Source: Orrella dioscoreae (lineage in GTDB: Bacteria; Pseudomonadota; Gammaproteobacteria; Burkholderiales; Burkholderiaceae_B). From it: a DNA stretch of 64,000 nucleotides. The translations under genes and the position numbers were made by a program. The DNA lies in NCBI RefSeq assembly GCF_900089455.2, contig NZ_LT907988.1:372001-436000 (forward strand), read 5' to 3'. The notes below the pieces were generated by a model. The model was given only the letters and a program-made list of their open reading frames with translations. It made no database searches and was not told where the DNA came from. Within the stretch, counting starts at the first letter, position 1. The number at the start of each line of letters is the position of its first letter. Shown in pieces: positions 2,924 to 50,983 of the stretch.

Positions 2924-4855
2924 ATGAAATGCCCCTCACCTTTGCCGAACGAATCCGAGAGGCTGCATGCGCTTTCGGAGTATGGGCTGGATCCGCAGCA
3001 TTCGCTGCCCAGCCTGGACCCGGTCGTACGTATCGCATCGCGCATGTTCAACATGCCGGTGTCGGCCATCAACATGATCGGCAGCGACCATGTGTTCTTC
3101 GCCGCCAGCGTCGGCGTCGGCGTGGGCGTGACGGACATGCGGCGCGACGTGTCCTTCTGCGCCCACGCGATCACCCAGGGCGATGTCATGGTCGTGCCCG
3201 ATGCGCGGCTGGATGACCGTTTTCACGACAATCCGCTGGTGTCCGGGGAAGCGAACATCCGGTTCTATGCCGGGGTGCCCCTGCATTCGCCCGAAGGCCA
3301 TCCGCTGGGCGCACTGTGCATCATCGACACCGAGCCGCATGGTGACTTCGGCGAGGAAGACAAGGACCGCTTGCGCGAGCTGGCCCGCATGGCGGGGGAT
3401 CGGCTGGAGTTGCGCCGGGTCGAGGTCTGCGCCGAGCATGCCCGCGAGGAGGCCCAGGCGCGTGCCCAGCAGGAGCGCGCCAATGCGGCGCTTGCCGCCG
3501 CTGCCGCGCAACAGGCCGATTCCGACATGGCGCGCAAGCGCGAGAACGACGACCTGCGCAAGCTCTCCAGCTTCGATCCGTTGACGGGCCTGGCCAACCG
3601 CGGCATCTTCTATCGGCGCGTGGAGGAGGTGCTGTCGCACCCCTCGTCAGCGGCCATCCTCATGGTGGACCTGGACGGTTTCAAGGACATCAACGACACG
3701 ATGGGCCACGCGGTGGGCGACGTGATCCTGCGCGAACTGGCCGCCCGGCTGGCGCGCACCGTGGGGCTTTGCGACACGGTCGCGCGCCTGGGCGGGGACG
3801 AGTTCGCCATCCTGCAGCCCAACGTCATGGACCTCAAGCAGGCGACCGAGTTGGCGCAGGCGGTACTGGCGCGCGTTGCCGAACCGATTTCCGTGCAGGG
3901 GCAGGAGTTGCGGCTGACCGCCAGCTGCGGCGTGGCACTGGCGCCGCTGCATGCCCACGAGGCGCTCGAGCTGGTGGGCAATGCCGACCTGGCGCTGGTG
4001 AAGGCGAAGGCCGTCGGCCGGGGCCGGATCTTCGTCTTCGTGCCCAACCTGAGGCTGGAGGCCGTGGCCCGGCGCCTGTATGGCATGGAGTTGCACCGGG
4101 CGGTCGCCAATGGTGAATTCCTGCTTTTCTACCAGCCGCAGATCAAGCTGGCGAGCGGTGAACTGACGGGCGCCGAAGCCTTGCTGCGCTGGCGGCATCC
4201 GCAATTGGGCTTGCTGGCGCCGGGGGTTTTCCTGCCTTCGCTGGAGGGCGGGCCCCTGGCGGCCACCGTGGGGTCATGGGTGCTGGACGAGGCCTGCAGC
4301 CAGGCCGCCTTCTGGCGGCGCAGCGGCGCCCATGATTTCCGCATCGGGGTGAATCTTTTCGGCGTGCAGTTCCGCGTGGGCGACCTGGCGACCGAGGTCA
4401 TGGAGACGCTGGCGCGCCACGGTCTGCCGCCAGAGGCGCTGGAACTGGAGATCACCGAGAACATCGTCCTGAACAATGACGATACGGCGCTCGAGATTCT
4501 GCGGCGCCTGCGCGCGCATGGCGTGGGCATCTCCTTCGATGACTTCGGCACGGGCTATGCGTCGCTGAGCCTGCTGAAGACGCACCCGCTCACGCGCATC
4601 AAGATCGACCGCTCCTTCGTCAGCGGGATCCTGGAGTCGAAACGCGATGCCACGGTGATCCGGGCGATCCTGGACGTGGCGCACAGCTTCGACCTGTGCA
4701 CCATCGCCGAGGGCATCGAGACCGATGCGCAACGCGAGCGCTTGCTGGCCGAGCATTGCGAGGAGGGGCAGGGCTATCTGTTCGGCAGGCCATTGCCGGC
4801 ACAGCAGTTTGCGCAGACTTTCGGTCTCGAGGCGGCCTTGCGGATATCGGCCTGA
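2924..4855 (+). CDS. GAF-GGDEF-EAL cyclic-di-GMP turnover protein
   Basis: 643 residues, cytoplasmic, with no membrane segment. A GAF sensor domain spans roughly residues 25-165 (SFCAHAI near 77-83), followed by a charged helical linker (165-215), a diguanylate cyclase domain with GGDEF intact at 290-294, and an EAL domain (about 395-640). The EAL catalytic set is complete: EALLRW, VNLFGVQF, ELEITEN, DDFGTGY, KIDRSF and AEGIET. The allosteric inhibition site normally RxxD reads GLCD (281-284), so feedback inhibition of the cyclase is probably lost. ATG 2924 is set by AGGAGG six bases upstream; the frame is open further upstream but lacks a site. Net activity (synthesis or hydrolysis) cannot be told from sequence. 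Confidence 0.95.
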   Translation: MKCPSPLPNESERLHALSEYGLDPQHSLPSLDPVVRIASRMFNMPVSAINMIGSDHVFFAASVGVGVGVTDMRRDVSFCAHAITQGDVMVVPDARLDDRFHDNPLVSGEANIRFYAGVPLHSPEGHPLGALCIIDTEPHGDFGEEDKDRLRELARMAGDRLELRRVEVCAEHAREEAQARAQQERANAALAAAAAQQADSDMARKRENDDLRKLSSFDPLTGLANRGIFYRRVEEVLSHPSSAAILMVDLDGFKDINDTMGHAVGDVILRELAARLARTVGLCDTVARLGGDEFAILQPNVMDLKQATELAQAVLARVAEPISVQGQELRLTASCGVALAPLHAHEALELVGNADLALVKAKAVGRGRIFVFVPNLRLEAVARRLYGMELHRAVANGEFLLFYQPQIKLASGELTGAEALLRWRHPQLGLLAPGVFLPSLEGGPLAATVGSWVLDEACSQAAFWRRSGAHDFRIGVNLFGVQFRVGDLATEVMETLARHGLPPEALELEITENIVLNNDDTALEILRRLRAHGVGISFDDFGTGYASLSLLKTHPLTRIKIDRSFVSGILESKRDATVIRAILDVAHSFDLCTIAEGIETDAQRERLLAEHCEEGQGYLFGRPLPAQQFAQTFGLEAALRISA

Positions 4856-6553: not shown

Positions 6554-8968
6554 ATGCCCTGCCCCACCGGGTCCCGTCCGCGCGCGCCAGCCCTTGCGGT
6601 CGCTGCCCTGCCCGTCGCGCTGGCGTTGGCCGCCAGCACGCTGGCCACGCCCGTCCTGGCCCAGTCCATCCCGCCCGGCCAGTCGGATGCCTTGCACGTC
6701 TATGCCTTGCCTGCCGGTCCGCTGGCCGACACGCTCAATCGCATTTCCTTGAGCAGCGGGCGGGTCATCTCGGTCGATCCCGCGCTGGTGGCCGGCCGAC
6801 AGGCCGGCGCGGTGCAGGGAATGTTCGACGCGGAAGAGGCGGTGCGCCGCGCGTTGGCGGGCACGGACCTGGAAAGCGTCACCACGCCCAGCCGCGCGAT
6901 CACCGTCAGGCCGGCGCCCGCGCCGGTGCGCGGCGCCTCGCAACTGGCGCCGGTGATGGTGGCGGCCACGCTGGTCGATCCAACCGTCACGGAAGGCACG
7001 CGTTCCTATACCGCGCGCGCGGTCTCCATGGGCAAGAGCACGCACTCCTTGCGCGAGACGCCGCAATCCATCACGGTGCTGACCCGCCAGCGCATGGACG
7101 ACCAGAACGTCACGACGCTGGGCCAGGCCATGGACTACGTCACCGGCGTGAAGGCAAGCCCGACGGGCACGGGCATCGTGAACATCGAGTCGCGCGGCTT
7201 CCTCATCAACGAATACCTGGTCGACGGCCTGCCGTTCAAGGGCGGGCAGGGCATGTGGGGCAACGCCCTGATGGACCTGGGTATCTATGACCGCGTGGAA
7301 GTCTGGCGCGGTCCCACGGGCCTGCTGGAAGGCGCGGCCGAGCCCAGCGGCACGATCAACCTGGTGCGCAAGCGCGCGCTGGCCGAGCCCGGCTTCAAGG
7401 GCGCGGTGTCGGTGGGCACCTGGGACCGCTATCGCGCCGAGATCGACGGCACGGGCGCGCTGACCGAGGATGGCCGCCTGCGCGCGCGTGGCGTGGTGAT
7501 CGAGGATCGCGCGGGCAGCCACCTGCACCGGGTCTATTCGGATCGCCGCACGGTCTATGGCACGCTGGAGTACGACTTCACGCCGTCGACCACGCTGTCG
7601 GTGGGCGGCACCTGGCAGGAGGGCGGCTCGCTGGTGTTCGTGGGCCTGCCGCAGTACGCGGACGGCCGCAACATCGACGTGCCGCGCTCCACCTACCTCG
7701 GGTCGAAGGATGCCAACAAGGATGACAACGCGCTCAGCTACTTCGCCGAGCTGGAGCATCGCCTGGCCGATGGCGGCAAGTTCCGCCTGAATGCCAGCCA
7801 TTCGGTGCGCAGGACCTGGCTGAACCGCTACATGACGCACAGCTACATCGACCCCGTCACGAACGACGTCACGATCCGTGCCGCGCGCCAGCGCTCGCGC
7901 CAGGAGAACAAGGGCGTGGACGCCTTCCTGACGTTGCCGGTGGACGCCTGGGGCCTGCGCCACGAGATCACGGCGGGCGCGAACTACCAGGAATACCAGG
8001 GCGGGCAGGTGCAGGCGCCGTTCGTGTCGTTCCGCCAGAACATCGACCGGCCCGACCTGGGCGTGGCCCCCACGCTGTTCGAGCCGGGCGAGTTGCCGCG
8101 CACCCAGGTGACGCAGTACGGCGTGTATGCCCAGGCCCGGGTGAAGCCCGTCGAACCCGTGACCGTGCTGCTGGGCGGACGCTATGCCTGGTGGGACACC
8201 CGCGACCCGGATGCGCCGGACAGCGACCAGCGCATCAAGGCCGAGTTCGTGCCCTATGCGGGCCTGGTCGTGGACCTCGACGCGCATCATTCGGCCTATG
8301 CCAGCTACAGCCGCATCTTCAGCCCGCAGACCGAGCAGTCGGCGGGCGGCGGCTTCCTTGCGCCGCGCGTGGGGCGGCAGGTGGAGCTTGGCATCAAGGG
8401 CGAATACCTGGACCAGCGGCTGAACACGCACCTGGCGGTGTTCCGCATCGACGACGTGAACCGCGCCATCGCGGACCCGGACAACGAGGACTTCTCGCTG
8501 GCTGCGGGCAAGGTACGCAGCCAGGGCGTCGAGGCCGAGGTGTCGGGACGCCTGACCCCGCAGTGGGAAATGAGCGCCGGCTATGCCTATACCTCGACCA
8601 GGTATCGCGAGGGCGCCGACAACGAAGTGGGCCTGCCGTACAACTCGGCCTATCCACGCCACAACTTCTCGTTGTGGACGAAATATCGCTTTGCCGATGG
8701 CGTGCTCGACCGGGTGTCGGTGGGCGGCGGCCTGCGCTGGCTCAGCGAGCAGTACGTGCAACGCGGCGGCGCGCGCTGGACGCAGCCGGCCTACACCCTG
8801 GTGGACCTGCAGCTGGGCTATGCCTTGCGTCCCGACATGGACCTGACGTTGACGGTCACCAACCTGTTCGACAAGCGCTACTTCAAGAAGATATCGGGCC
8901 ATGAGTTCCGCCAGACCTACTACGGCGAACCGCGCGGCGCGATGCTGACCTTGCGCGGCGCGTTCTGA
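6554..8968 (+). CDS. TonB-dependent siderophore receptor with signalling (STN) domain
   Basis: 804 residues. A signal peptide ends near ALA-QSI (about residue 38). The STN domain follows (about 48-110; LHVYALPAGPLADTLNRI), the part that passes the ligand signal to FecR. The plug (about 150-290) contains RETPQSITVLTRQRM and the ESRGF and VDGLP strands. A 22-strand barrel ends in Phe (LTLRGAF), the outer-membrane insertion signature. GGAG lies 7 bases before ATG 6554. With the preceding sigma and FecR genes it forms a cell-surface signalling circuit of the FecA/FpvA kind. The siderophore is not predictable; the following ABC genes show that the complex crosses the inner membrane intact. Confidence 0.95.
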   Translation: MPCPTGSRPRAPALAVAALPVALALAASTLATPVLAQSIPPGQSDALHVYALPAGPLADTLNRISLSSGRVISVDPALVAGRQAGAVQGMFDAEEAVRRALAGTDLESVTTPSRAITVRPAPAPVRGASQLAPVMVAATLVDPTVTEGTRSYTARAVSMGKSTHSLRETPQSITVLTRQRMDDQNVTTLGQAMDYVTGVKASPTGTGIVNIESRGFLINEYLVDGLPFKGGQGMWGNALMDLGIYDRVEVWRGPTGLLEGAAEPSGTINLVRKRALAEPGFKGAVSVGTWDRYRAEIDGTGALTEDGRLRARGVVIEDRAGSHLHRVYSDRRTVYGTLEYDFTPSTTLSVGGTWQEGGSLVFVGLPQYADGRNIDVPRSTYLGSKDANKDDNALSYFAELEHRLADGGKFRLNASHSVRRTWLNRYMTHSYIDPVTNDVTIRAARQRSRQENKGVDAFLTLPVDAWGLRHEITAGANYQEYQGGQVQAPFVSFRQNIDRPDLGVAPTLFEPGELPRTQVTQYGVYAQARVKPVEPVTVLLGGRYAWWDTRDPDAPDSDQRIKAEFVPYAGLVVDLDAHHSAYASYSRIFSPQTEQSAGGGFLAPRVGRQVELGIKGEYLDQRLNTHLAVFRIDDVNRAIADPDNEDFSLAAGKVRSQGVEAEVSGRLTPQWEMSAGYAYTSTRYREGADNEVGLPYNSAYPRHNFSLWTKYRFADGVLDRVSVGGGLRWLSEQYVQRGGARWTQPAYTLVDLQLGYALRPDMDLTLTVTNLFDKRYFKKISGHEFRQTYYGEPRGAMLTLRGAF

Positions 8969-40463: not shown

Positions 40464-40616
40464 GGGCGGCGGCCGCAAAGAGGGTGGCGGGATGGCGCGA
40501 TTGTACGGACTGGCGTGCCTGCGCAGTGCGGGGAGCAAGGGGCGGTTCCTGCTGTTGCGCGGGCCCCGCATCCGGGAAATCGAGGATGGCGAGGCGCGCT
40601 GGCAGAACTCATAGTC

Positions 40617-40631
40617 TCATCAGACCAGTTG
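40617..40631. promoter_or_regulatory. Operator copy 1 of the GntR regulator
   Basis: TCATCAGACCAGTTG occurs here, 13 bases before the GntR start, and its exact reverse complement occurs at 41457-41471 directly before the RuBisCO-like gene. The core TGGTCTGATGA is one mismatch from the FadR-subfamily pattern TNGTNNNACNA. Confidence 0.7.
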
Positions 40632-40644
40632 TGGAGTGCCGCCG

Positions 40645-41388
40645 ATGCCCGACGTCATCAACCGCCGCAAGCTCTACCAGGAAGTGGCCGATCGCCTGCT
40701 GGCCCGCATCCAGGCGGGCGAGTTCGCGCACGACGCGCGCCTGCCCTCCGAGCGCACGCTGATGGAGGCGTACGGCGTGGGACGCCCGGCCGTGCGCGAG
40801 GCGCTCTTCGCGCTGGAGAAGATGGGCATCGTCGAGATCCTGCATGGCGAGCGCACGCGGGTGACGCGGCCTTCGCCGGCTTCGGTCATCCAGCACATGG
40901 CCGCGCTGGGGGACCACATGCTGGCAGGCTCGGAAGCCAACCTGGCCTACCTGAAGGATGCGCGCCAGTTCTTCGAGGTCGGCATGGTGCGCCGCGCGGC
41001 CGAGCGCGCCACCGAGCCCCAGTTGGCGGCGCTGCGCGACAACCTCCGTCTGCAGGCCGCGGCGGCGGATGACGGCCAGCGCTTCCTGCAGGCGGACAAG
41101 GCCTTTCACCAGCAGTTGGCCGACATCTCCGGCAATCCGATCTTCACGGCCGTCAGCGTGGCCATGTACGAGTGGCTGGCGCGCTATCACGTGGCGCTGG
41201 TGCAGACGCCGGGCGCCGAGCAGCAGACCCTGGCCGAGCACCAGGCCATCTACGACAGCGTGGCGGCGGGCGACCCCGACGGCGCCGCGCGCGCCATGAC
41301 CGATCACCTGACGCGGGCCAACCGCTTGTATCAGCAGTCGACCCAGGCGTGCGTGCCGGCGGGACGCGCCGTCCGCAAGCGAGCCTGA
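40645..41388 (+). CDS. GntR/FadR-subfamily regulator of the apionate-type cluster
   Basis: 247 residues from ATG 40645, with GGAG eight bases upstream. The GntR winged helix covers about residues 8-75 (LYQEVADRLLARIQAGEFAH, LPSERTLMEAYGVGRPAVREAL). An all-helical FCD domain follows at about 95-225 (AYLKDARQFFEVGMVRRAAE, ADKAFHQQLADISGNPIF), with metal-ligand-type His and Asp residues. FCD regulators release DNA on binding sugar acids. It precedes the RuBisCO-like gene by 84 bases, and identical 15-base sites flank it, so it should control itself and the catabolic genes. Confidence 0.92.
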   Translation: MPDVINRRKLYQEVADRLLARIQAGEFAHDARLPSERTLMEAYGVGRPAVREALFALEKMGIVEILHGERTRVTRPSPASVIQHMAALGDHMLAGSEANLAYLKDARQFFEVGMVRRAAERATEPQLAALRDNLRLQAAAADDGQRFLQADKAFHQQLADISGNPIFTAVSVAMYEWLARYHVALVQTPGAEQQTLAEHQAIYDSVAAGDPDGAARAMTDHLTRANRLYQQSTQACVPAGRAVRKRA

Positions 41389-41456
41389 CAGGGGCGGTCC
41401 GGCGGCAAAAGCGATCCTTTCATCCTGTTGCGAGCCAGCACGGGCGCGGCATCAAC

Positions 41457-41471
41457 CAACTGGTCTGATGA
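41457..41471. promoter_or_regulatory. Operator copy 2 of the GntR regulator
   Basis: CAACTGGTCTGATGA is the exact reverse complement of the site at 40617-40631. It ends one base before the ATG of the RuBisCO-like gene, so a bound repressor would block transcription elongation or the start region directly. No Shine-Dalgarno is visible in it. Confidence 0.7.
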
Positions 41472-41472
41472 C

Positions 41473-42771
41473 ATGACGAAATCCGGCAGCATCCTCTCCA
41501 GCGGCAAGGCCCCCAATACGCGGCTGCGTGCCCGCTATTGGCTGGAAACCCCGGCAGACCCGCGCAAGGTGGCCGAGACCATCGCCGGCGAGCAGTCCAC
41601 CGGCACCTTCGTGCGGCTGGCGCCGGAGGTCGAGGCGCGGGCCGCGCGTTGCGATGCCGTCGTGGAGTCGGTGCAGGAAGTGGAGGGCGCCCCGCACGCC
41701 AGCCTGCCCACGGCCCGCCGCGCGGGCGATGTGCCGGTGCGGCGGGCGCTCATCGAGCTGTCCTGGAGCGAGGAGAACTTCGGCTGTTCCCTGCCCAACC
41801 TGATGGCGACGGTGGCGGGCAATCTGTTCGAGCTGCGCGACGTGACGGGGCTGCGCCTGCTGACGCTGAATCTGCCTGACGGCTATGCGGCGCGCTATCC
41901 GGGGCCGCAGTTTGGCGTGACGGGCACGCGGCGGCTGGCGGGCGTGCGCGCGGGTCCGCTGGTGGGCACGATCATCAAGCCCAGCGTGGGGCTGTCGCCC
42001 GAGCAGACGGCGGCGATGGTGGCGACGCTGTGCGAAGGCGGCATCGACTTCATCAAGGACGACGAGTTGCAGGCCGACGGGCCGCACTGTCCGTTCGAGG
42101 CGCGGGTGCATGCCGTGATGCGCGTGGTCAACGACCATGCCGCGCGCACGGGCAAGAAGCCGATGGTGGCCTTCAACATCACCGACGACCTGGACGCCAT
42201 GCGGCGCCACCACGATACGGTGCTGGCGCATGAAGGCACGTGCGTGATGGTCAGCGTGAACAGCATCGGGCTGGCTGGGCTGGCCTACCTGCGGCGCCAT
42301 TGCGCGCTGCCCATCCACGCGCATCGCAATGGCTGGGGTTACCTCAGCCGCCATCCGGCCCTGGGTTTCGACTATGCCGCCTGGCAGGTGTTGTGGCGGC
42401 TGGCGGGCGCTGACCACATGCATGTGAACGGCTTGCGCAACAAGTTCTCGGAGCCCGATGAATCGGTGATCGCATCGGCCAGGGCGCTGGCCGAGCCGCT
42501 GTTCTCGGAGGGGCTGCCGGGCTACGCGGCCATGCCCGTGTTTTCTTCGGGGCAGTGGGCGGGGCAGGCCGCGGACACCTATCGTGCCCTGGGCAGCGAC
42601 GATCTCATCTACACCTGCGGCGGCGGCATCGTGGCGCATCCGGGCGGCATTGCCGCGGGGGTGGAGAGCGTGCGCGCGGCCTGGCAGGCGGCAGCGCGCG
42701 GACAAGCCGTGCAGGAGGCTGCCGTCGGCAACGCGGCGCTGCGCCAGGCGCTTGATTTCTTCGGCAAGTGA
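41473..42771 (+). CDS. oiaX: RuBisCO-like protein, 3-oxo-isoapionate-4-phosphate decarboxylase type
   Basis: 432 residues, a RuBisCO large-subunit homologue of the type IV (RuBisCO-like) class. The active-site lysine is in GTIIKPSVG (Lys169), the carbamylated-lysine motif is intact as KDDE (Lys195 to Glu198), His residues lie in IHAHRNGWGY, and the phosphate-binding CGGG is at 382-385. The CO2-fixing loop 6 differs from true RuBisCO. In known D-apionate pathways the OiaX RuBisCO-like enzyme decarboxylates 3-oxo-isoapionate 4-phosphate. The following DUF1537 kinase and ApnO-type gene make that role the best fit. No small subunit or phosphoribulokinase is present, so carbon fixation is not indicated. 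Confidence 0.85.
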   Translation: MTKSGSILSSGKAPNTRLRARYWLETPADPRKVAETIAGEQSTGTFVRLAPEVEARAARCDAVVESVQEVEGAPHASLPTARRAGDVPVRRALIELSWSEENFGCSLPNLMATVAGNLFELRDVTGLRLLTLNLPDGYAARYPGPQFGVTGTRRLAGVRAGPLVGTIIKPSVGLSPEQTAAMVATLCEGGIDFIKDDELQADGPHCPFEARVHAVMRVVNDHAARTGKKPMVAFNITDDLDAMRRHHDTVLAHEGTCVMVSVNSIGLAGLAYLRRHCALPIHAHRNGWGYLSRHPALGFDYAAWQVLWRLAGADHMHVNGLRNKFSEPDESVIASARALAEPLFSEGLPGYAAMPVFSSGQWAGQAADTYRALGSDDLIYTCGGGIVAHPGGIAAGVESVRAAWQAAARGQAVQEAAVGNAALRQALDFFGK

Positions 42772-42779
42772 GGGGCGAC

Positions 42780-44195
42780 GTGTCCCAGTCGTCCTTCTCG
42801 ATGCCTTCCGATGCCGAGGCGCCCGCCCTGGCATTCCTGGGCGATGACTTCACGGGCTCCACCGATGCCATGCAGGCCCTGGCCGTGCAGGGCGCGCCGA
42901 CCCTGCTGTTCCTGCGTACGCCGGACGCACGGGCGCTGGCGGCGGCGCGGGGGCGCTATGCGGCGATCGGCCTGGCCGGCGTGAGCCGCAGCCAGGGGCC
43001 GGCCTGGATGGACGCGCATCTGCCAGCGGCGTACGCGGCACTGGCCGCCTCAGGCGCGCCGCTCGTGCACTACAAGGTCTGTTCCACCTTCGACTCCTCG
43101 CCCGCCTTGGGCAGCATCGGCCGGGCCATCGAACTGGGCCGGGCGGCGTTTCCCTCGCCCGTGCCGCGCGCGACGCCGGTCATCGTGGGCGCGCCTGCCT
43201 TGCGCCGCTACACCGCTTTCGGTCATCTGTACGCGTCTGGCGGCGAGCGCGTCTGGCGCATCGACCGCCATCCCACCATGGCCGCGCATCCCGTCACCCC
43301 GATGGCGGAAGCCGACCTGCTGCGGCACCTGGCCGCGCAGACGACCTTGCGTGGCGGCCTCTTCGATTTCACCGAGGCGACGCGGCCGGACGCCAGGGCG
43401 CGCCATGCCCGAGCGATGGCGGACCACGAGATCCTGCTGATGGACGTGCTGGACGAGGCGACGCTGGCCTCGGCAGGCCGCCTGCTGTGGCAGGCGGCCT
43501 GCGCGCAGCCCGGGCATCCCCTGTTCTGCGTGGGCTCGTCGGGCGTGGAGTACGGCTTGATCGCCGCCTGGCGCGAGACCGGCGGACTGGCCCGGCCCGG
43601 CGCGCCACCGCCCGGCCGGGCGTCGCGGGTGCAGGCCATCGCGGCGGTGTCGGGCAGTTGCTCGCCGGTCACCGCCGCGCAGATCACGCAGGCGGGGCAG
43701 GATGGCTTCGCCTGCCTGCGCGTGGCGCCGGAGACCCTGCTGGACGACGTGGCCGCCAGCGGTGCCGCGCTGGGCGCGCGCATGCTGGCCGCCTTGTCAG
43801 GCGGGCGCAGCGTGCTGGCCTATACGGCGCAGGGACCGGATGATCCGGCGATCACGCAGTTCCGCTCCGTGCTGCGCGCGCGCGGCCTGGACGAGGCCGA
43901 TGCCCTGGCCCGCGTGGGCCAGGCGTTGGGCATCGCCCTGCGCGCCGCCGCGCAGGGGGCGGGCCTGCAGCGGGTGGCGGTGGCCGGCGGCGACACCTCG
44001 GGACAGGTGATGCAGGCCATGGGCATCTCGGCCCTGCGCCTGCATGCGGCCTTCGCGCCGGGCGTGCCGCTGTGCGAGGCCTGCGAACCGAGGGACGGCG
44101 CGCCAGGCCTGCAGGTGGCGCTGAAGGGGGGGCAGATGGGCGGAGAAGGATTCTTCGGCGACGTGCGGGCGGGCATGCCGCGCGTGGCGGGGTGA
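42780..44195 (+). CDS. oiaK: DUF1537 four-carbon acid-sugar kinase, 3-oxo-isoapionate kinase type
   Basis: 471 residues from GTG 42780, which has GAGGGG just upstream; GTG 42768, overlapping the oiaX stop, and ATG 42801 are alternatives. The N-terminal sugar-acid-binding domain carries LGDDFTGSTDAM and VCSTFDSSPALGSIGRA. The C-terminal nucleotide-binding domain carries AGGDTSGQVMQAMG and LKGGQMGGEGFFG. DUF1537 enzymes phosphorylate four-carbon or branched sugar acids. Linked to the RuBisCO-like gene and apnO, the expected substrate is 3-oxo-isoapionate. A second, different DUF1537 kinase lies at 46668-47948. Confidence 0.85.
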   Translation: MSQSSFSMPSDAEAPALAFLGDDFTGSTDAMQALAVQGAPTLLFLRTPDARALAAARGRYAAIGLAGVSRSQGPAWMDAHLPAAYAALAASGAPLVHYKVCSTFDSSPALGSIGRAIELGRAAFPSPVPRATPVIVGAPALRRYTAFGHLYASGGERVWRIDRHPTMAAHPVTPMAEADLLRHLAAQTTLRGGLFDFTEATRPDARARHARAMADHEILLMDVLDEATLASAGRLLWQAACAQPGHPLFCVGSSGVEYGLIAAWRETGGLARPGAPPPGRASRVQAIAAVSGSCSPVTAAQITQAGQDGFACLRVAPETLLDDVAASGAALGARMLAALSGGRSVLAYTAQGPDDPAITQFRSVLRARGLDEADALARVGQALGIALRAAAQGAGLQRVAVAGGDTSGQVMQAMGISALRLHAAFAPGVPLCEACEPRDGAPGLQVALKGGQMGGEGFFGDVRAGMPRVAG

Positions 44196-44227: not shown

Positions 44228-45064
44228 ATGCAACACATCGCCATCGTGGGCGCGGGCGGCAAGATGGGCTATCGCGTATCCGCCAACCTGAAGGGCGCGC
44301 CGTACCAGGTAAGCCATATCGAAGTCAGCGAGGCGGGCCGCCAGCGGCTGCGCGAGCTGGACATCACGTGCGTCGAGGCCGAGGCGGCATTGCGGCAGGC
44401 CGACGTGGTGATCCTGGCCATTCCCGACAACCTGATCGGCCGCATCACCGCGCAGCAGGAGAGTCTTTACAAGCCGGGCGCCATCCTGATCGCGCTGGAT
44501 GCCGCGGCGCCGTTCGCGGGCGAATTGCCGGAACGCGAAGACCTGACGATCTTCGTGGCGCATCCGTGCCACCCGCCGCTCTTCAATGACGAGGTGACGC
44601 CCGAGGCCAAGCAGGACTACTTCGGCGGCGTGGCCGCCAAGCAGCACATCGTGTGCTCGCTGATGCGCGGGCCCGACGCGCACTATGCGCTGGCCGAGGA
44701 CGTGGCGCGGCGCATGTACGCGCCGGTGATGCGCGCGCACCGCGTCACGGTGGAGCACATGGCGATCCTGGAGCCGGTGCTGTCCGAGACCATCGGCGCG
44801 ACCTGCATCGCCATCATGCGCGAGGCGACGCAGGAGGCCGTGCGGCGCGGCGTGCCGGAGCAGGCCGCGCACGATTTCATCCTGGGGCACATGACGGTGC
44901 TGACCGCGATGCAGTTCGGGCTGATGGGGCCTCACGCGCGCATGTCGGACGCGGCCATCAAGGCGGTGGAGATCGCCAAGCGCGAGCTGTTCGCGCCGGA
45001 CTGGAAGAAGGTCTTCGAGCCCAAGGCGGTGGCCGAGAGCATCCGGCAGATCACCACGCCTTGA
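44228..45064 (+). CDS. apnO: D-apionate oxidoisomerase-type dehydrogenase
   Basis: 278 residues from ATG 44228 with GAGGAGA upstream. The N-terminal Rossmann domain (IAIVGAGGKMGYRVSANLK) belongs to the 6-phosphogluconate/ketol-acid reductoisomerase superfamily. The C-terminal helical domain includes FVAHPCHPPLFNDE and VEHMAILEPVLSETIGATC. ApnO enzymes oxidise and rearrange D-apionate to 3-oxo-isoapionate with NAD, the step before OiaK and OiaX. The three-gene order oiaX-oiaK-apnO in one transcript supports this. An alternative would be another branched sugar-acid dehydrogenase. No D-apionolactonase gene is visible. Confidence 0.78.
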   Translation: MQHIAIVGAGGKMGYRVSANLKGAPYQVSHIEVSEAGRQRLRELDITCVEAEAALRQADVVILAIPDNLIGRITAQQESLYKPGAILIALDAAAPFAGELPEREDLTIFVAHPCHPPLFNDEVTPEAKQDYFGGVAAKQHIVCSLMRGPDAHYALAEDVARRMYAPVMRAHRVTVEHMAILEPVLSETIGATCIAIMREATQEAVRRGVPEQAAHDFILGHMTVLTAMQFGLMGPHARMSDAAIKAVEIAKRELFAPDWKKVFEPKAVAESIRQITTP

Positions 45065-45148: not shown

Positions 45149-45877
45149 ATGGCCGCCAACGAGACCCTCCTGCGGGAAGCCATCTGCCGTTATGGCCGCT
45201 CGCTCTTCGAGCGGGGCCTGACGCCCGGCTCATCGGGCAACATCAGCTATCGCCTGGAAGATGGCGGCTGGCTCGTCACCCCCACCAATGCCTCGCTGGG
45301 TTTCCTGGACCCGGCGCGGCTGTCGCGCCTGGACGCGCAGGGGCGCCTGCTGTCGGGTGATGCGCCGACCAAGGAGATTCCGCTGCACACGGCCTTGTAC
45401 GACACGCGCGATGGCGCGCGCGCCGTGGTGCACCTGCATTCCACGCATTCGGTGGCGATTTCCATGTTGCCGGGCATCGACCCGCGCGACGTGCTGCCGC
45501 CGCTCACGCCCTATTACCTGATGCGCGTGGGCCGCACGGCATTGCTGCCGTACTACCGTCCCGGCGATCCCGCCGTGGCGGAAGCCATCCGGGGTCTGGC
45601 GGGCAAGTACGCGTCGGTGCTGCTGTCCAACCATGGCCCGGTGGTGGCTGGCGCGGACCTGGAGGCGGCGGTCTTCGCCACCGAGGAGCTGGAGGAAACC
45701 GCCAAGCTCTTCCTGTTGCTGCGCGGCATGAACCCGCGTGGGCTGGATGCCGCGCAGGTGCGTGACCTGGTGTCGGTCTTCAAGCTGGATGACGCGGTAG
45801 GCCAGTTGCCTGCGCACGGCAGTTGCGAGGCAGGGCATGCGGGTTGCGCGGGGCATGGCCCAGCGGTCAAGGACTGA
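45149..45877 (+). CDS. otnC: Class II aldolase, 3-oxo-tetronate-4-phosphate decarboxylase type
   Basis: 242 residues from ATG 45149 with CGGAGA upstream. Zinc-dependent class II aldolase/adducin fold: SGNISYR near residue 31, PTKEIPLH with the catalytic Glu, the metal histidines in VHLHSTHSVA, and SNHGPVV. OtnC decarboxylates 3-oxo-tetronate 4-phosphate to dihydroxyacetone phosphate. The partners otnI, otnK and denD lie on the opposite strand and converge on it, the stop codons overlapping by 11 bases. It follows apnO by 84 bases and is probably read with the apionate genes. A cysteine/histidine-rich tail ends the protein. Confidence 0.85.
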   Translation: MAANETLLREAICRYGRSLFERGLTPGSSGNISYRLEDGGWLVTPTNASLGFLDPARLSRLDAQGRLLSGDAPTKEIPLHTALYDTRDGARAVVHLHSTHSVAISMLPGIDPRDVLPPLTPYYLMRVGRTALLPYYRPGDPAVAEAIRGLAGKYASVLLSNHGPVVAGADLEAAVFATEELEETAKLFLLLRGMNPRGLDAAQVRDLVSVFKLDDAVGQLPAHGSCEAGHAGCAGHGPAVKD

Positions 45878-46649
45878 GGCCCATCTTGCCGAACCATGCC
45901 AGCCCCGCGTCGGTGTCGCCGCGCGGCTTGTATTCGCAGCCCACCCAGCCCGCGTAGCCCAGCGCGTCCAGCTGTTCGAAGAGGATCTCGTAGCGCAGCT
46001 CGCCTTCATCCGGCTCGGCCCGGCTGGGCACGGCGGCGATCTGCACGTGCCCGATGCGCGGCAGGTGCCGCGCCAGCCTGGTCAGCACGTCGCCCTCGGT
46101 CACGCCCACGTGATAGGCGTCGAACATCAGGCGCACGTTGTCCTTGCCGACGTAGTCGATGATCGTGTCGGCCTCGGCCACGCGGGAGTAGAAATAGCCG
46201 GGCTTGTCGCGCGGGTTGATGGGTTCCAGCAGCAGCGTCAGGCCGTGCTCGGCGGCCTTGTCGGCCGCCAGCCCCAGGTTGCGCACGAATGTGTCGGTGG
46301 CGAGCGGGCGCGAGCCCGGGGGCACGATGCCCGCCATGGCGTGGATGGACTGGCCGCCTGCTGCCACGCTCCAGGCGATGGCCTGGTCGACGGCGGCCTG
46401 GAAATCGGCTTCGCGCCCGGGCAGCGCGCCCAGCCCGAACTCGCCGCGTCCGCCGTCTCCCACCACCGTGTTCACGCCCAGCAGGGTCAGGCCAAGCTGC
46501 TCGCAGCGGGCGCGCACTTCGTCCGCCGGTGTGTCATAAGGCCAATGCAATTCGATGGCCTTGAAGCCTGCCCGGGCCGCGGCCTCGATGCGTGCCGGCA
46601 GCGGCAGGTCGGGCCAGAGGAAACCGAGGTTGGCGGAGAAGCGGGGCAT
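45867..46649 (-). CDS. otnI: 2-oxo-tetronate isomerase (hydroxypyruvate isomerase family)
   Basis: 260 residues, a TIM-barrel sugar isomerase. The start is MPRFSANLGFLWPDLPLPARI. The metal-binding acids are in LLLEPINPRDKPGYF (Glu), MFDAYH (Asp), HVQIAAVPSR (His) and GCEYKP (Glu), all typical of the Hyi/OtnI family. In the acid-sugar pathway it converts 2-oxo-tetronate to 3-oxo-tetronate. It is 18 bases downstream of otnK and the last gene of a minus-strand unit gntR-denD-otnK-otnI. Its stop overlaps otnC on the other strand. Confidence 0.9.
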   Translation of the reverse strand: MPRFSANLGFLWPDLPLPARIEAAARAGFKAIELHWPYDTPADEVRARCEQLGLTLLGVNTVVGDGGRGEFGLGALPGREADFQAAVDQAIAWSVAAGGQSIHAMAGIVPPGSRPLATDTFVRNLGLAADKAAEHGLTLLLEPINPRDKPGYFYSRVAEADTIIDYVGKDNVRLMFDAYHVGVTEGDVLTRLARHLPRIGHVQIAAVPSRAEPDEGELRYEILFEQLDALGYAGWVGCEYKPRGDTDAGLAWFGKMGLSP

Positions 46650-46667
46650 GGCAGGGCTCCAGCAGAA

Positions 46668-47948
46668 TCAGGGGTGGGGGGCGGCGTGCGACATCTGCCG
46701 CAGGGCCTTGCGATAGAAATCCGGCGTGCCGAAGTTGCCGCTTTTCAAGGCCAGCCGGATGCCTTGCGGCCCGGCCAGGGCGGGGCAGGCGGACAGCACG
46801 GGCACGCCCGGGTCGATCTCGGGGCCGATGGCGAGCTGGCGCAGCGACAGCGCGCCCACCACCGCACCCGAGGTTTCGCCGCCGCCGACGGCCAGGCGCG
46901 TGACGCCGGCCTGGATCAGCTGCGCCGCGAGTTCGCCGAAGAAGGCTTCCACGGCCTGTGCCGCGCGGTCGCGGCCATGGGCGGCCTGGGCGCGGGCGAC
47001 GCTGTCGGGGTCGGCGCTGGAATAGATCAGCGGGGCGTCGGCCAGGTGCTTGCGCGCGAAGGCCAGCGCCGTTTCCACGGTCAGTGTGCCGGAAAGCAGC
47101 GCATCGGGCGAGACCGCCAGCGAGGGATGGTCCTGGCGATAGTCGTCCACCTGCCGCAGCGACATGCTCGAGCAGGAGCCGGACAGCACTGCGGCGGGCC
47201 CCAGCAATGGCTCGAAGGCGAGCCGTTCGCCGGACAGCAGGCCTTGCGCGCGGAAGTTCTCGGGCAGTCCCAGCGCAATGCCCGAGCCGCCGGTGATCAG
47301 CGCGTGGCCGCGCGCGGCATGTCCGATGGCGCGCAGGTCGTCGTCGGTGATGGCGTCGACCACCACGAGCCTGCGGCCGGCCGCCACCTCGTCGCGCCAC
47401 GCCTCGCCGATCGCGGCACTGCCGCGCCGAACGGCGTCGTGGCGCACCAGGCCGGCTTCACCCTCGATCTGGCGGCCCAGCCAGCGGCGGATGTCCGGGT
47501 CGGTCATGGGCGTGAGCGGATGCCGTTGCATGCCGGATTCCGACAGCAGCCTGTCGCCCACGAACAGGTGGCCCATGTAGAGCGTGCGGCCCGTGGCGGG
47601 AAAGACCGGGCAGACGAAGGCGCCGGGCGCGTTCAGCGCGTCCAGCAGCGCCAGGGCCACCGGGCCGATGTTGCCTGCCGGGGTGGAATCGAAGGTGGAG
47701 CAATACTTGAACAGGAACTGGCGGCAGCCCTGGGCACGCAGCCAGCGCAAGGCGGCCAGCGACTGGGCCACGGCTTCGTCGGCAGGAATGGAGCGCGTCT
47801 TCAACGCGACCACGCCAGCCTCGCAGGTGTCGGGCGAGGCGTCGGGCGGCACGCCCACGAACTGCGTCGTGGCCATGCCGGCACGCGCCAGCGTGTTGGC
47901 CAGATCGCTGGCCCCGGTGAAATCATCGGCGATGCAGCCCAGCAGCAT
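46668..47948 (-). CDS. otnK: DUF1537 kinase, 3-oxo-tetronate 4-kinase type
   Basis: 426 residues from ATG 47948, preceded by GGAG. The N-terminal domain has CIADDFTGASDLANTLARAG and KYCSTFDSTPAGNIGPVA. The C-terminal domain has VGGGETSGAVVGALSL and ALKSGNFGTPDFYRKAL, the OtnK type of the DUF1537 family. It phosphorylates 3-oxo-tetronate at C4 with ATP. It lies between denD (29-base gap) and otnI (18-base gap). It is clearly distinct from the OiaK-type kinase at 42780, so two DUF1537 kinases of different specificity occur within 5 kb. Confidence 0.92.
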   Translation of the reverse strand: MLLGCIADDFTGASDLANTLARAGMATTQFVGVPPDASPDTCEAGVVALKTRSIPADEAVAQSLAALRWLRAQGCRQFLFKYCSTFDSTPAGNIGPVALALLDALNAPGAFVCPVFPATGRTLYMGHLFVGDRLLSESGMQRHPLTPMTDPDIRRWLGRQIEGEAGLVRHDAVRRGSAAIGEAWRDEVAAGRRLVVVDAITDDDLRAIGHAARGHALITGGSGIALGLPENFRAQGLLSGERLAFEPLLGPAAVLSGSCSSMSLRQVDDYRQDHPSLAVSPDALLSGTLTVETALAFARKHLADAPLIYSSADPDSVARAQAAHGRDRAAQAVEAFFGELAAQLIQAGVTRLAVGGGETSGAVVGALSLRQLAIGPEIDPGVPVLSACPALAGPQGIRLALKSGNFGTPDFYRKALRQMSHAAPHP

Positions 47949-47977
47949 GGCGGTGTCTCCTTCGGTGTCGGGCGGGG

Positions 47978-48952
47978 TCAGGCCGCGGGGGCCTGCGTGC
48001 GCACATAGTCGGCCACCAGTTCGGCGCCGGTGCCGGGCGGGGCAAAGCCCAGCGCCTGGGCGCGGCTGGTGTCGATGCGCGCGGGCCAGGTGTCGACGAT
48101 GGCCTTGATGCGCGTGTCGGGCTGCCAGTCGATGCGGTCGGCCACGGCATCGCCCGCCAGCTCGCGCAGCGTGTCCACCATTTCGCCCGCCGTGACCGTC
48201 AGGCCGGGCAGGTTGATGCTGCGTGCCTTGCCCAGTTTGCCGCCCGGCAGCAGGAACGCGTGCACCAGCGCTTCCACCGCGCGGTCGGTGGCCGCCAGCC
48301 ACAAGGGCGTGCCGGGGTCCACGGGACAGATGGCGCGCTCGCCCGCCATGGGCTCGCGGATGATGCCGCTGGCGAAGCTGGATGCCGCGCCATTGGGCAG
48401 GCCGGGGCGCACCGACACGGTGGGAATGCGCACGCTGCGGCCGTCGATGTAGCCCTTGCGCGTGTAGTCGGCCACCAGCAGTTCGCCGATGAGTTTCTGG
48501 ATGCCGTAGGAGGACTGCGGGTCGGGGCGGGTGTCGTCGTCGACCACCTCCGGCAGGTCGCCGCCGTACACGGCCAGCGAGCTGGAGAACAGGAAGGGAA
48601 TGGGACGGCCCAGGCCGCGCGCCGCCTCCAGCAGCGTGCGGGTGCCGTCCAGGTTCACGCGCATGCCCAGGTCGAAGTCGGCTTCGGCCGTGCCGCTGAC
48701 CACGCCGGCCAGGTGGGCGATGCCAACGAGGTCGGGCGTCATCAGGTCACGCAATTGCGCGGCATCGGCGATGTCGGCCTGGATGTCGCGCACCCGCGTG
48801 TCCTGCAGGGCGCCTGGACCCTGGTCCAGCGCCAGGATCTCGGTGACGGGCCCGGCGCCGCCACGCCCATCCGGGATGTCCCGGCGCGCCAGCAAGGCCT
48901 CGATGAAACGCTGTCCAAGAAAACCGCTGCTGCCGGTCACGAGCACTTTCAT
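47978..48952 (-). CDS. denD: D-erythronate dehydrogenase (NAD-dependent epimerase family)
   Basis: 324 residues, extended short-chain dehydrogenase fold. The nucleotide-binding TGSSGFLGQ is at residues 6-14, FLFSSSLAVYGGDLPE carries the catalytic Ser, and YGIQK carries the Tyr-x3-Lys pair. The C-terminal substrate domain ends LVADYVRTQ. In Cupriavidus-type pathways DenD oxidises D-erythronate to 2-oxo-tetronate, which OtnI, OtnK and OtnC then take to dihydroxyacetone phosphate; all are found next to it here. Its start overlaps the GntR stop (ATGA), so the two are translationally coupled. Confidence 0.88.
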   Translation of the reverse strand: MKVLVTGSSGFLGQRFIEALLARRDIPDGRGGAGPVTEILALDQGPGALQDTRVRDIQADIADAAQLRDLMTPDLVGIAHLAGVVSGTAEADFDLGMRVNLDGTRTLLEAARGLGRPIPFLFSSSLAVYGGDLPEVVDDDTRPDPQSSYGIQKLIGELLVADYTRKGYIDGRSVRIPTVSVRPGLPNGAASSFASGIIREPMAGERAICPVDPGTPLWLAATDRAVEALVHAFLLPGGKLGKARSINLPGLTVTAGEMVDTLRELAGDAVADRIDWQPDTRIKAIVDTWPARIDTSRAQALGFAPPGTGAELVADYVRTQAPAA

Positions 48953-49752
48953 GGGTGGGTCTCCTGTTTCCTTCTGCTTGGGGTGGGGCGCGCAGGGGAA
49001 CGGGGCGCGTCGCCCGCCGCTGCGCTGGCGTGTTCCTGCATGGCCGCGCGGATACGCGTGTCGGTGTTGCGCATATGGGTGCTGGCCGCGCGCCGTGCCG
49101 CGACGGCGTCGCCATCCTGGATGGACTGCGCAAGCGCGGTGTGCTCGGCGATGACCTTCTGCGCCTTGCGCGGGTATTGCGCCTCGTGGCCCCGCGTCAG
49201 GTGCATGGTGTCCGTCAGCAGGTGGCCCAGGAAGCGCAGCATGGAGGGGAAAAGCGGGTTGCCGCTGGCCTGTGCGATGGCCATGTGGAAGGCGATGTCT
49301 TCCTTCACGCCGTCGCGGCCCTGGCGGGTGGCCTGGGCGATGGCTTCCAGCGCGCGCCAGATGGCGGCGGCCTCGGCGCGGCTGCGGCGTTGCGCGGCCA
49401 GCGCGGCCATCTCGGCCTCGACGCTGCGGCGCAGCTCCAGCACATAGATGGCGTGGTCCGCCGAACCGCGCATGTCCAGGTCGATGCGGAAGGGCACGTT
49501 GGGATTGGCCCCCAGCACGACCGTGCCGCTGCCCTGGCGCGTGCCGACCAGGCCGTCGACGCGCAGCCGCGAGATGGCTTCTCGCACGACGGTGCGGCTC
49601 ACTCCGTGGCGTTGCGTCAGCACGGCCTCGGTGGGCAGGTTGGAGTGCACGGGGTACTGGCCATCGTGGATGGCTTGCCGCAATGCGGCGGTGACCTGGT
49701 CGGCCAGGGTGCCTTGGTCGGACGGAGCAGGGCGCGCGGTGTCCAGGCTCAT
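48949..49752 (-). CDS. GntR/FadR-subfamily regulator of the erythronate genes
   Basis: 267 residues from ATG 49752. The winged helix covers about residues 14-80 (LADQVTAALRQAIHDGQYPV, LPTEAVLTQRHGVSRTVVREAISRLRVDGLV). The FCD domain covers about 95-235 (YVLELRRSVEAEMAALAAQR, DIAFHMAIAQASGNPLFP). A basic, proline-rich tail follows. It is the first gene of the minus-strand unit with denD, otnK and otnI and is divergent from the dehydrogenase-TRAP operon. Tandem sites fitting TNGTNNNACNA lie in the shared promoter region, so it probably controls both units. Confidence 0.92.
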   Translation of the reverse strand: MSLDTARPAPSDQGTLADQVTAALRQAIHDGQYPVHSNLPTEAVLTQRHGVSRTVVREAISRLRVDGLVGTRQGSGTVVLGANPNVPFRIDLDMRGSADHAIYVLELRRSVEAEMAALAAQRRSRAEAAAIWRALEAIAQATRQGRDGVKEDIAFHMAIAQASGNPLFPSMLRFLGHLLTDTMHLTRGHEAQYPRKAQKVIAEHTALAQSIQDGDAVAARRAASTHMRNTDTRIRAAMQEHASAAAGDAPRSPARPTPSRRKQETHP

Positions 49753-49854
49753 GCGTTTTCCTTGGTAGCGGTGCGGCGCGCGCCTGCCGGCACGGCGGGA
49801 CCCTAGGGTTATTCCGGTTACGTGCGGCCGGGCGCGTCTGGCACCATGCGCAAA

Positions 49855-49878
49855 TTGTATGACGAATTTGTATAACAA
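49855..49878. promoter_or_regulatory. Tandem GntR operators between gntR and the dehydrogenase operon
   Basis: TTGTATGACGA (49855-49865) and TTGTATAACAA (49868-49878) both fit the FadR-subfamily pattern TNGTNNNACNA and are 13 bases apart. The second is a perfect inverted repeat (TTGT-ATA-ACAA). They lie 35 bases before the dehydrogenase start. Confidence 0.7.
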
Positions 49879-49912
49879 GTCACGGTGCACACGCCGGACG
49901 CGAGGAGACGAA

Positions 49913-50983
49913 GTGGGTACGAAGCACAGGATCGCCGTGATCGCCGGCGACGGCATCGGCACGGAAGTCATGCCGGAAGGACTGCGCGCGCTGGATGCCG
50001 TGGCCACGCGTTTCGGCATCGGTTTCCAGTTCGACGAATTCGACTGGAATTCGCAGCGCTACGCCCGCGAAGGCGCGATGGTGCCGCCCGACTGGGAAGA
50101 CCAGATCGGCAGGCACGAGGCCATTTTCTTCGGCGCGATGGGCTGGCCCGAAATCGTGCCGGACCATATTGCGCTGTGGGGCTCGCTGCTCATGTTCCGC
50201 CGCCGCTTCGACCAGTACATCAACCTGCGTCCCGTGAAGCTGATGCCCGGCGTGCGTTCGCCGCTGGCGGACCGCAAGCCTGGCGACATCGATTTCCTGA
50301 TCGTGCGCGAGAACACCGAAGGGGAGTATTCCAACAGCGGCGGCAGGCTCTTCGAAGGCACCGACCGCGAGGTGGTCATCCAGGAAAGCGTCTTCACCCG
50401 GCACGGTGCGCACCGCGTCCTGAAGTACGCCTTCGAGCTGGCGCAGAAACGCGGCAAGCACCTGACGGCGGCCACCAAGTCCAACGGCATCTCCATCTCC
50501 ATGCCCTGGTGGGACGAGCGCGTGGCCGATATCGCCACGCAGTATCCGGACGTGCGCTGGGACAAGTACCACATCGACATCCTGACGGCGCACTTCGTGC
50601 AGCACCCCGACTGGTTCGACGTGGTGGTGGCGTCCAACCTGTTCGGCGACATCCTGTCGGACCTGGGGCCCGCGTGCACGGGCACCATCGGCATCGCGCC
50701 GTCGGCCAACCTGAATCCCGAGCGAGCCTTTCCGTCCCTGTTCGAGCCGGTGCACGGCTCGGCGCCGGACATCGCGGGCAAGGGCATCGCCAACCCCATC
50801 GGCCAGATCTGGAGCGCCTCGCTCATGCTGGACTTCCTGGGGCACGCCGAGGCGGCGAAGACGGTGTTGTCCGCCATCGAGACCGTGCTGGCCGACGGAC
50901 CGCGCACGCGTGACCTGGGCGGCAAGGCCAGCACGGTCGAGGTCGGCCGCGCGGTGGCGGCGGTCATCGCCTCGGGCGCCTGA
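49913..50983 (+). CDS. Tartrate dehydrogenase family enzyme (isocitrate/isopropylmalate dehydrogenase superfamily)
   Basis: 356 residues from GTG 49913, with GAGGAG six bases upstream. Beta-decarboxylating dehydrogenase fold: IAVIAGDGIGTEVMPEGL, then ALWGSLLMFRRRFDQYINLRP with the substrate arginines, RENTEGEYSN, KSNG, and the metal aspartates in NLFGDILSDL. FEPVHGSAPDIAGKGIANP completes the NAD site. Sequence style is that of the TtuC/DmlA group that oxidises tartrate, D-malate or similar hydroxy-acids. In this context a four-carbon sugar acid such as threonate is also possible. It is the first gene of a six-gene operon ending in a TRAP transporter. Confidence 0.9.
   Translation: MGTKHRIAVIAGDGIGTEVMPEGLRALDAVATRFGIGFQFDEFDWNSQRYAREGAMVPPDWEDQIGRHEAIFFGAMGWPEIVPDHIALWGSLLMFRRRFDQYINLRPVKLMPGVRSPLADRKPGDIDFLIVRENTEGEYSNSGGRLFEGTDREVVIQESVFTRHGAHRVLKYAFELAQKRGKHLTAATKSNGISISMPWWDERVADIATQYPDVRWDKYHIDILTAHFVQHPDWFDVVVASNLFGDILSDLGPACTGTIGIAPSANLNPERAFPSLFEPVHGSAPDIAGKGIANPIGQIWSASLMLDFLGHAEAAKTVLSAIETVLADGPRTRDLGGKASTVEVGRAVAAVIASGA

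Follow-up and report, generated by a model that had tools for sequence, protein, structure and literature searches.

Two 15-base sequences flanking a gntR gene of Orrella dioscoreae are very probably two copies of one operator for the adjacent GntR protein, a NanR-like member of the FadR subfamily, which would locally repress its own gene and the neighboring operon until a sugar acid brings about its release. The window, meaning the whole stretch of DNA that was analyzed, is 64,000 nucleotides (64 kb) long, and the features around the operator pair are as follows.

40617..40631, forward strand: predicted operator copy 1, core TCATCAGACCAGTTG, before gntR, with the weak left arm of the longer site beginning at 40609 (from the sequence; 20.6 bits with a relatives-only matrix)
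40645..41388, forward strand: gntR (P0001), GntR helix-turn-helix (HTH) plus FCD, FadR subfamily, NanR-like, the presumed binder of both sites (Pfam, NCBIfam, PDB)
41389..41472, forward strand: gntR-RLP spacer of 84 bases (simple consensus scan)
41457..41471, reverse strand: predicted operator copy 2, core the exact reverse complement of TCATCAGACCAGTTG, before the RuBisCO-like gene (from the sequence; 22.9 bits with the same matrix)
41473..42771, forward strand: RuBisCO-like protein (RLP), OiaX-like (P0002), first gene of the presumed regulated operon (Pfam RuBisCO_large; closest PDB chain 3nwr)

On re-reading the sequence, the coordinates, strands and spacings of the pair all agree with those of an earlier sequence-only reading, copy 1 ending 13 bases ahead of the gntR ATG and a single base separating copy 2 from the RuBisCO-like gene's ATG. 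In the proposed mechanism, a GntR dimer would bind both copies, so that copy 1 would serve the autoregulation of gntR and copy 2 the control of an operon encoding the RLP, a kinase, an oxidoisomerase and a decarboxylase. When inducer is absent, GntR would occupy both copies and block transcription; a metal-chelated sugar acid from the pathway, once in the FCD pocket, would release it. We infer that the protein binds the copies and that it represses instead of activating, and the ligand and promoters are likewise inferred. Nothing about a local repressor that has its operator in duplicate is out of the ordinary.

The 15-mer might have proved frequent elsewhere, yet the whole 4,848,101-base (4.85 Mb) genome holds only two exact copies, both at this locus. 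Near-matches with two mismatches occur at seven places genome-wide and with one mismatch at none, and the 64-kb window contains no further match at three mismatches or fewer. The earlier claim that a chance match is very unlikely needs correcting, since the match stands out by where it lies and not just by its length. The window is GC-rich, and exact inverted 15-mer pairs are no rarity in it when distance is disregarded: the count is 52, and 20 second-order Markov simulations gave a mean of 22.7. Less than 1 kb apart there is this pair alone, against a simulated mean of 0.4. Taken alone, the pair is only moderately surprising; what makes it secure is where its two copies lie and, most of all, that relatives conserve it. 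The suggestion that a genome search for extra copies would expose more pathway genes was not borne out. Of three genomic occurrences of the shorter core TCATNANACCAG, two belong to the pair and the third lies at 716123 between two long open reading frames (ORFs). Six of the seven 15-mers with two mismatches were looked at, L004, L007 and L008 falling within long ORFs, and neither search led to another pathway operon or transporter.

Because the GntR is rare in close relatives (1 of 101, its own genome only; 3 of 399 in the order, its own genome included), conservation was tested on more distant loci. A scan of a genome collection with the RLP supplied the comparison set, the best 80 of at least 569 confirmed loci, and 56 of these 80 carry an orthologous gntR, called by tblastn at an E value of 1e-15 or better. 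A 12-mer within one mismatch of TCATCATACCAG, with the seventh base ignored (11 positions), was found at 40 of the 56 gntR-bearing loci, at 3 of the 24 RLP loci lacking gntR and in none of the 80 reversed sequences, where many of the 80 loci are congeneric (Halomonas, Herbaspirillum, Paraburkholderia, Caballeronia and Limnohabitans). With a leave-one-out matrix, which contains a few chance matches from coding regions, 48 of the 56 gntR loci reach at least 13 bits, compared with 2 of 56 reversed, and the other eight have no such site. Beyond the training set are 13 loci, 11 on plasmids and two from genomes, with L095, L097 and L098 all from Sinorhizobium. At 18 bits or more the site is present in 10 of the 13 and in none of the 13 reversed sequences, a threshold chosen post hoc with the scores already known; lowering it to 13 bits leaves the 10 of 13 unchanged and lets one reversed sequence through (14.0). 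The three outside loci without a site are L091, L099 and L103; in the last two, gntR stands beside a sugar ABC operon, with no annotated RLP in the stretch shown. When the window was left out of the matrix, its two sites received the scores listed above and no other match of 10 bits or more appeared in the 64 kb, the reversed control yielding zero. Site and regulator are thus conserved together across alpha-, beta- and gammaproteobacteria. Such recurrence of one sequence next to orthologous gntR genes (40/56 versus 3/24; 10/13 outside training) gives strong support to the prediction that the adjacent GntR has the 15-mers as its operators.

The arrangement of the sites varies among relatives, in which they stand upstream of gntR, RLP and apnO-type genes. 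In three plasmid records, from S. meliloti pSymB, R. johnstonii and Ensifer, gntR and OiaX-annotated genes diverge around a site that parts the NanR-annotated from the OiaX-annotated genes. One locus (L077) shows the identical inverted arrangement around a tandem gntR-RLP, and in another tandem locus (L066) both sites share one orientation. In L010, the relative whose RLP is nearest and whose gene order is likewise tandem, gntR is preceded by a site and the RLP gene is not (-1.4 bits). Because the sites precede two separate genes and because of the same-orientation tandem, the inverted orientation of the pair appears to carry no meaning of its own. The operons behind the sites include TRAP transporter genes in L010 and L045, and an MFS gene follows the site in L031 and L050. 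As a separate observation, positions 6001-9373 of L028, on a contig titled as an Akkermansia muciniphila metagenome-assembled genome (MAG), have the gene coordinates and nearly identical pre-RLP sequence of Limnohabitans L021; this contig is probably a mislabelled or contaminated bin.

The predicted site is asymmetric and longer than the 15-mer, which forms its core; a weak outer TnnT at -8 to -5 precedes TCATnAnACCAG. The relatives' consensus is TCATnATACCAG, and this genome has G at the seventh position. According to the matrix of relatives' sites, information sits mainly in TCATCA-n-ACCAG, and the T at -8 and the T at -5 are weaker, at 0.65 and 0.60 bits. The strong half is ACCA, with weaker TCAT and TnnT parts, and the predicted operator would be about 19-23 bp long, exceeding the 15-mer. 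The window copies both have the two outer T bases, within TCAT for copy 1 and within TCGT for copy 2. This TCGT occupies 41476-41479 of the minus strand and agrees with the weak outer arm, and the longer site of copy 2 probably extends to about 41479, across the RLP start codon at 41473-41475. FadR-subfamily operators have the general layout TnnT-NNN-AnnA, which TCAT-CAG-ACCA fits. Unlike FadR-type palindromes, the site has a left half of poor symmetry, and the ligand class would differ too. Near-perfect 7-7-7 palindromes (ATGGTAT-ACTCATC-ATACCAT and CTGGTAT-AGTGATG-ATACCAG) stand in a Cupriavidus locus (L096, near 8903-8923) and in L031, L036 and L043 (near 3424-3495), and some Herbaspirillum loci have a nearly perfect palindrome of this kind. 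These palindromes suggest an ancestral operator in which both halves were strong.

Turning to the protein, the gntR product matches PF00392 (GntR; 67.2 bits) and PF07729 (FCD; 104.6 bits), both above the gathering score. A GntR winged HTH at the N terminus and an all-helical FCD domain at the C terminus make up an architecture that belongs to the definition of the FadR subfamily in the NanR study (PMC8012715) and is common to this protein and E. coli FadR. It exceeds the cut-off of NCBIfam NF003011 (293.7 bits against 260), a model of the NanR subfamily and not an equivalog, and its best PDB match is E. coli NanR itself (6on4, E 3.4e-43). The NanR zinc ligands Asp172, His176, His222 and His244 are all kept, together with Arg128 and Phe168. 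The metal ligands are D151, H155, H199 and H221 in this GntR, and each is invariant wherever the residue is present (n = 56, 56, 54 and 54 of 57 orthologues); R107 is the counterpart of the carboxylate-binding Arg128. In NanR the bases are contacted by Arg59, Arg69 and Arg73 (PMC8012715), and their counterparts R37, R47 and R51 are invariant in 57 of 57. The same source describes DNA binding by NanR as asymmetric, with one domain on consensus and the other on non-consensus sequence (PMC8012715), and this would fit the strong and weak halves of the present site.

NanR proper was ruled out by the operator, the N-terminal extension and the ligand contacts. The E. coli NanR operator is given as (GGTATA)3 (PMC8012715); the relatives' half-site TGGTAT resembles it, and a search of 40501-41600 found no NanR-type GGTATA or TATACC. 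The long N-terminal extension of NanR is missing here, with residue 6 aligned to NanR residue 28 and five residues ahead of it; the extension is reported to comprise 32 residues and to be needed for cooperative assembly (PMC8012715). The wing residue Asn89 is replaced by His in 57 of 57, and the Neu5Ac contacts Asn165, Arg203, His214, Asn215 and Gln221 have become G, H, Q, Q and E. The neighbors of this GntR are sugar-acid genes and not, as for NanR, sialic-acid genes. Since the five Neu5Ac contacts are lost and the metal ligands and carboxylate arginine are kept, the inducer is probably some chelating sugar acid, and not sialic acid. Apionate or 3-oxo-isoapionate would be candidate ligands.

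Behind copy 2, the RLP gene is followed by three more.

42801..44195, forward strand: four-carbon acid sugar kinase, SBD_N/NBD_C, OiaK-like (P0003; domain profiles)
44228..45064, forward strand: PGDH_C-domain dehydrogenase, ApnO-like by domain (P0004; PF16896, 216.8 bits)
45149..45877, forward strand: 3-oxo-tetronate 4-phosphate decarboxylase, class II aldolase family (P0005; NF043034, 326.7 bits, cut-off 250)

One branch of D-apiose catabolism proceeds by way of 3-oxo-isoapionate and the enzymes OiaX, OiaK and ApnO. Here too, an RLP, an acid sugar kinase and a PGDH_C enzyme stand in a row, and in rhizobial records a NanR-annotated orthologue adjoins OiaX-annotated genes. Unlike the OiaX and OiaK of that branch, the RLP and kinase of the window score below the curated cut-offs, with 457.5 bits against 700 for the OiaX equivalog NF042437 and 482.1 bits against 700 for the OiaK equivalog NF042436. 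The third enzyme is ApnO-like by its domain; no ApnO model among the NCBIfam profiles matched it. Given the low OiaX and OiaK scores, the RLP and kinase may act on a related substrate, and assignment to the apionate pathway is thus plausible, short of established. No transporter gene was identified among the scanned operon genes with NCBIfam and Pfam profiles. Adjoining the operon at 45867-50983 is a D-erythronate-type cluster of genes for a 2-oxo-tetronate isomerase-like protein, a 3-oxo-tetronate kinase, D-erythronate dehydrogenase, a GntR and tartrate dehydrogenase. Within this cluster, the interval 49741-49918 between the LldR-like GntR gene (48949-49740, minus strand) and the tartrate dehydrogenase gene contains AATTGTATGACGAATTTGTATAACAA, with repeats near 49843-49870. 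It consists of two near-repeats of AATTTGTAT and is probably a FadR-type operator of the LldR-like GntR itself.

The RLP gene begins in an unusual setting. Copy 2 had been said to occupy the place of a ribosome-binding site, and the pairing energies agree: the 20 bases upstream of the RLP ATG bind the anti-Shine-Dalgarno sequence at only -3.2 kcal/mol, weaker than the median of -4.0 for random 20-mers of the window; for gntR the value is -5.9 kcal/mol. The RLP start is taken as 41473. No in-frame ATG or GTG lies upstream before a stop; a TTG is present at 41428. An alternative start was considered and 41473 retained. L010 shares a longer start, at a similar GATGACATGA sequence with AGGTG ahead and no operator. 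In most relatives shown, the RLP starts about 14 residues later and further downstream of the site. Simple consensus scans gave no promoter-like or terminator-like match in the 84-base spacer and no consensus promoter or terminator at copy 1 or copy 2; hand-picked weak hexamers, such as CATAGT before copy 1, were kept out of the evidence. Counting the window, 15 of 16 sites before RLP genes are in reverse orientation, and along the gene the relatives' reverse-oriented sites read TGGTATRAT (14/14), a sequence resembling an extended -10 element. In the window, TGGTCTGAT stands at this position instead. Readthrough of the RLP gene from gntR is possible, with no terminator between them.

This setting leads to a somewhat unlikely alternative, in which transcription of the RLP operon starts at the gntR promoter and copy 2 serves as an auxiliary operator, either as a roadblock or by looping with copy 1. 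It accords with the bare spacer and with the alteration in the window of the -10 embedded in relatives' sites. The centers of the copies are 840 bp apart, exactly 80 turns (80.0 at 10.5 bp per turn), a distance compatible with looping and also with chance, phasing this close being expected by chance in roughly 1 case in 5. Against an auxiliary role, the extended -10 in the relatives' RLP-proximal sites suggests a promoter at that position. That GntR acts at the sites as an activator or dual regulator instead of a repressor is improbable: the distances of only 13 bases and one base to the start codons fit repression, as does the overlap of many relatives' sites with -10-like sequence. A repeat arising by chance and having no function has a negligible probability. 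Such pairs are indeed common in the window, in excess of simulation, but the position of this one, its being the sole pair within 1 kb and its conservation with the regulator in three proteobacterial classes argue otherwise, and all three comparative tests reject it (40/56 versus 0/80; 48/56 versus 2/56; 10/13 versus 0/13).

The copies could also meet in RNA. In a joint gntR-RLP transcript, a 15-bp duplex between them would hide the RLP start region and so control translation. Complementarity between the copies is perfect (-24.9 kcal/mol), they are paired in the predicted fold of 40617-41520, no terminator separates the genes, and the RLP gene has no detectable Shine-Dalgarno sequence. However, long-range minimum-energy folds are unreliable, and a transcript starting within copy 1 would carry only part of it. 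The divergent gntR/oiaX loci keep their sites yet share no transcript, L010 has a single site, and the same-orientation sites of L066 cannot pair; therefore, RNA pairing is not the conserved function. Site orientation and the divergent layouts disfavor it as the main function, which is extremely unlikely. Very improbable, too, is a dual use, in which the operator at copy 2 spans the start codon and replaces the ribosome-binding site while the copies also pair in the joint mRNA, making a protein site in DNA and a self-complementary mRNA switch of the same sequence. If true, one sequence at copy 2 would serve both DNA-level repression and translation initiation, with an RNA lock added to the protein lock.

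Two operator copies for local repression by the adjacent GntR is the preferred reading. A search of the open-access full-text literature, with subscription papers and regulon databases outside its scope, found no description of this operator, and the operator family seems undescribed in the literature searched. What emerges is a testable operator consensus for a GntR group that is widespread in alpha-, beta- and gammaproteobacteria, apparently undescribed, and found beside RuBisCO-like sugar-acid operons. Such a consensus would enable regulon prediction, including the transporter of relatives, and would guide the choice of inducers to try.
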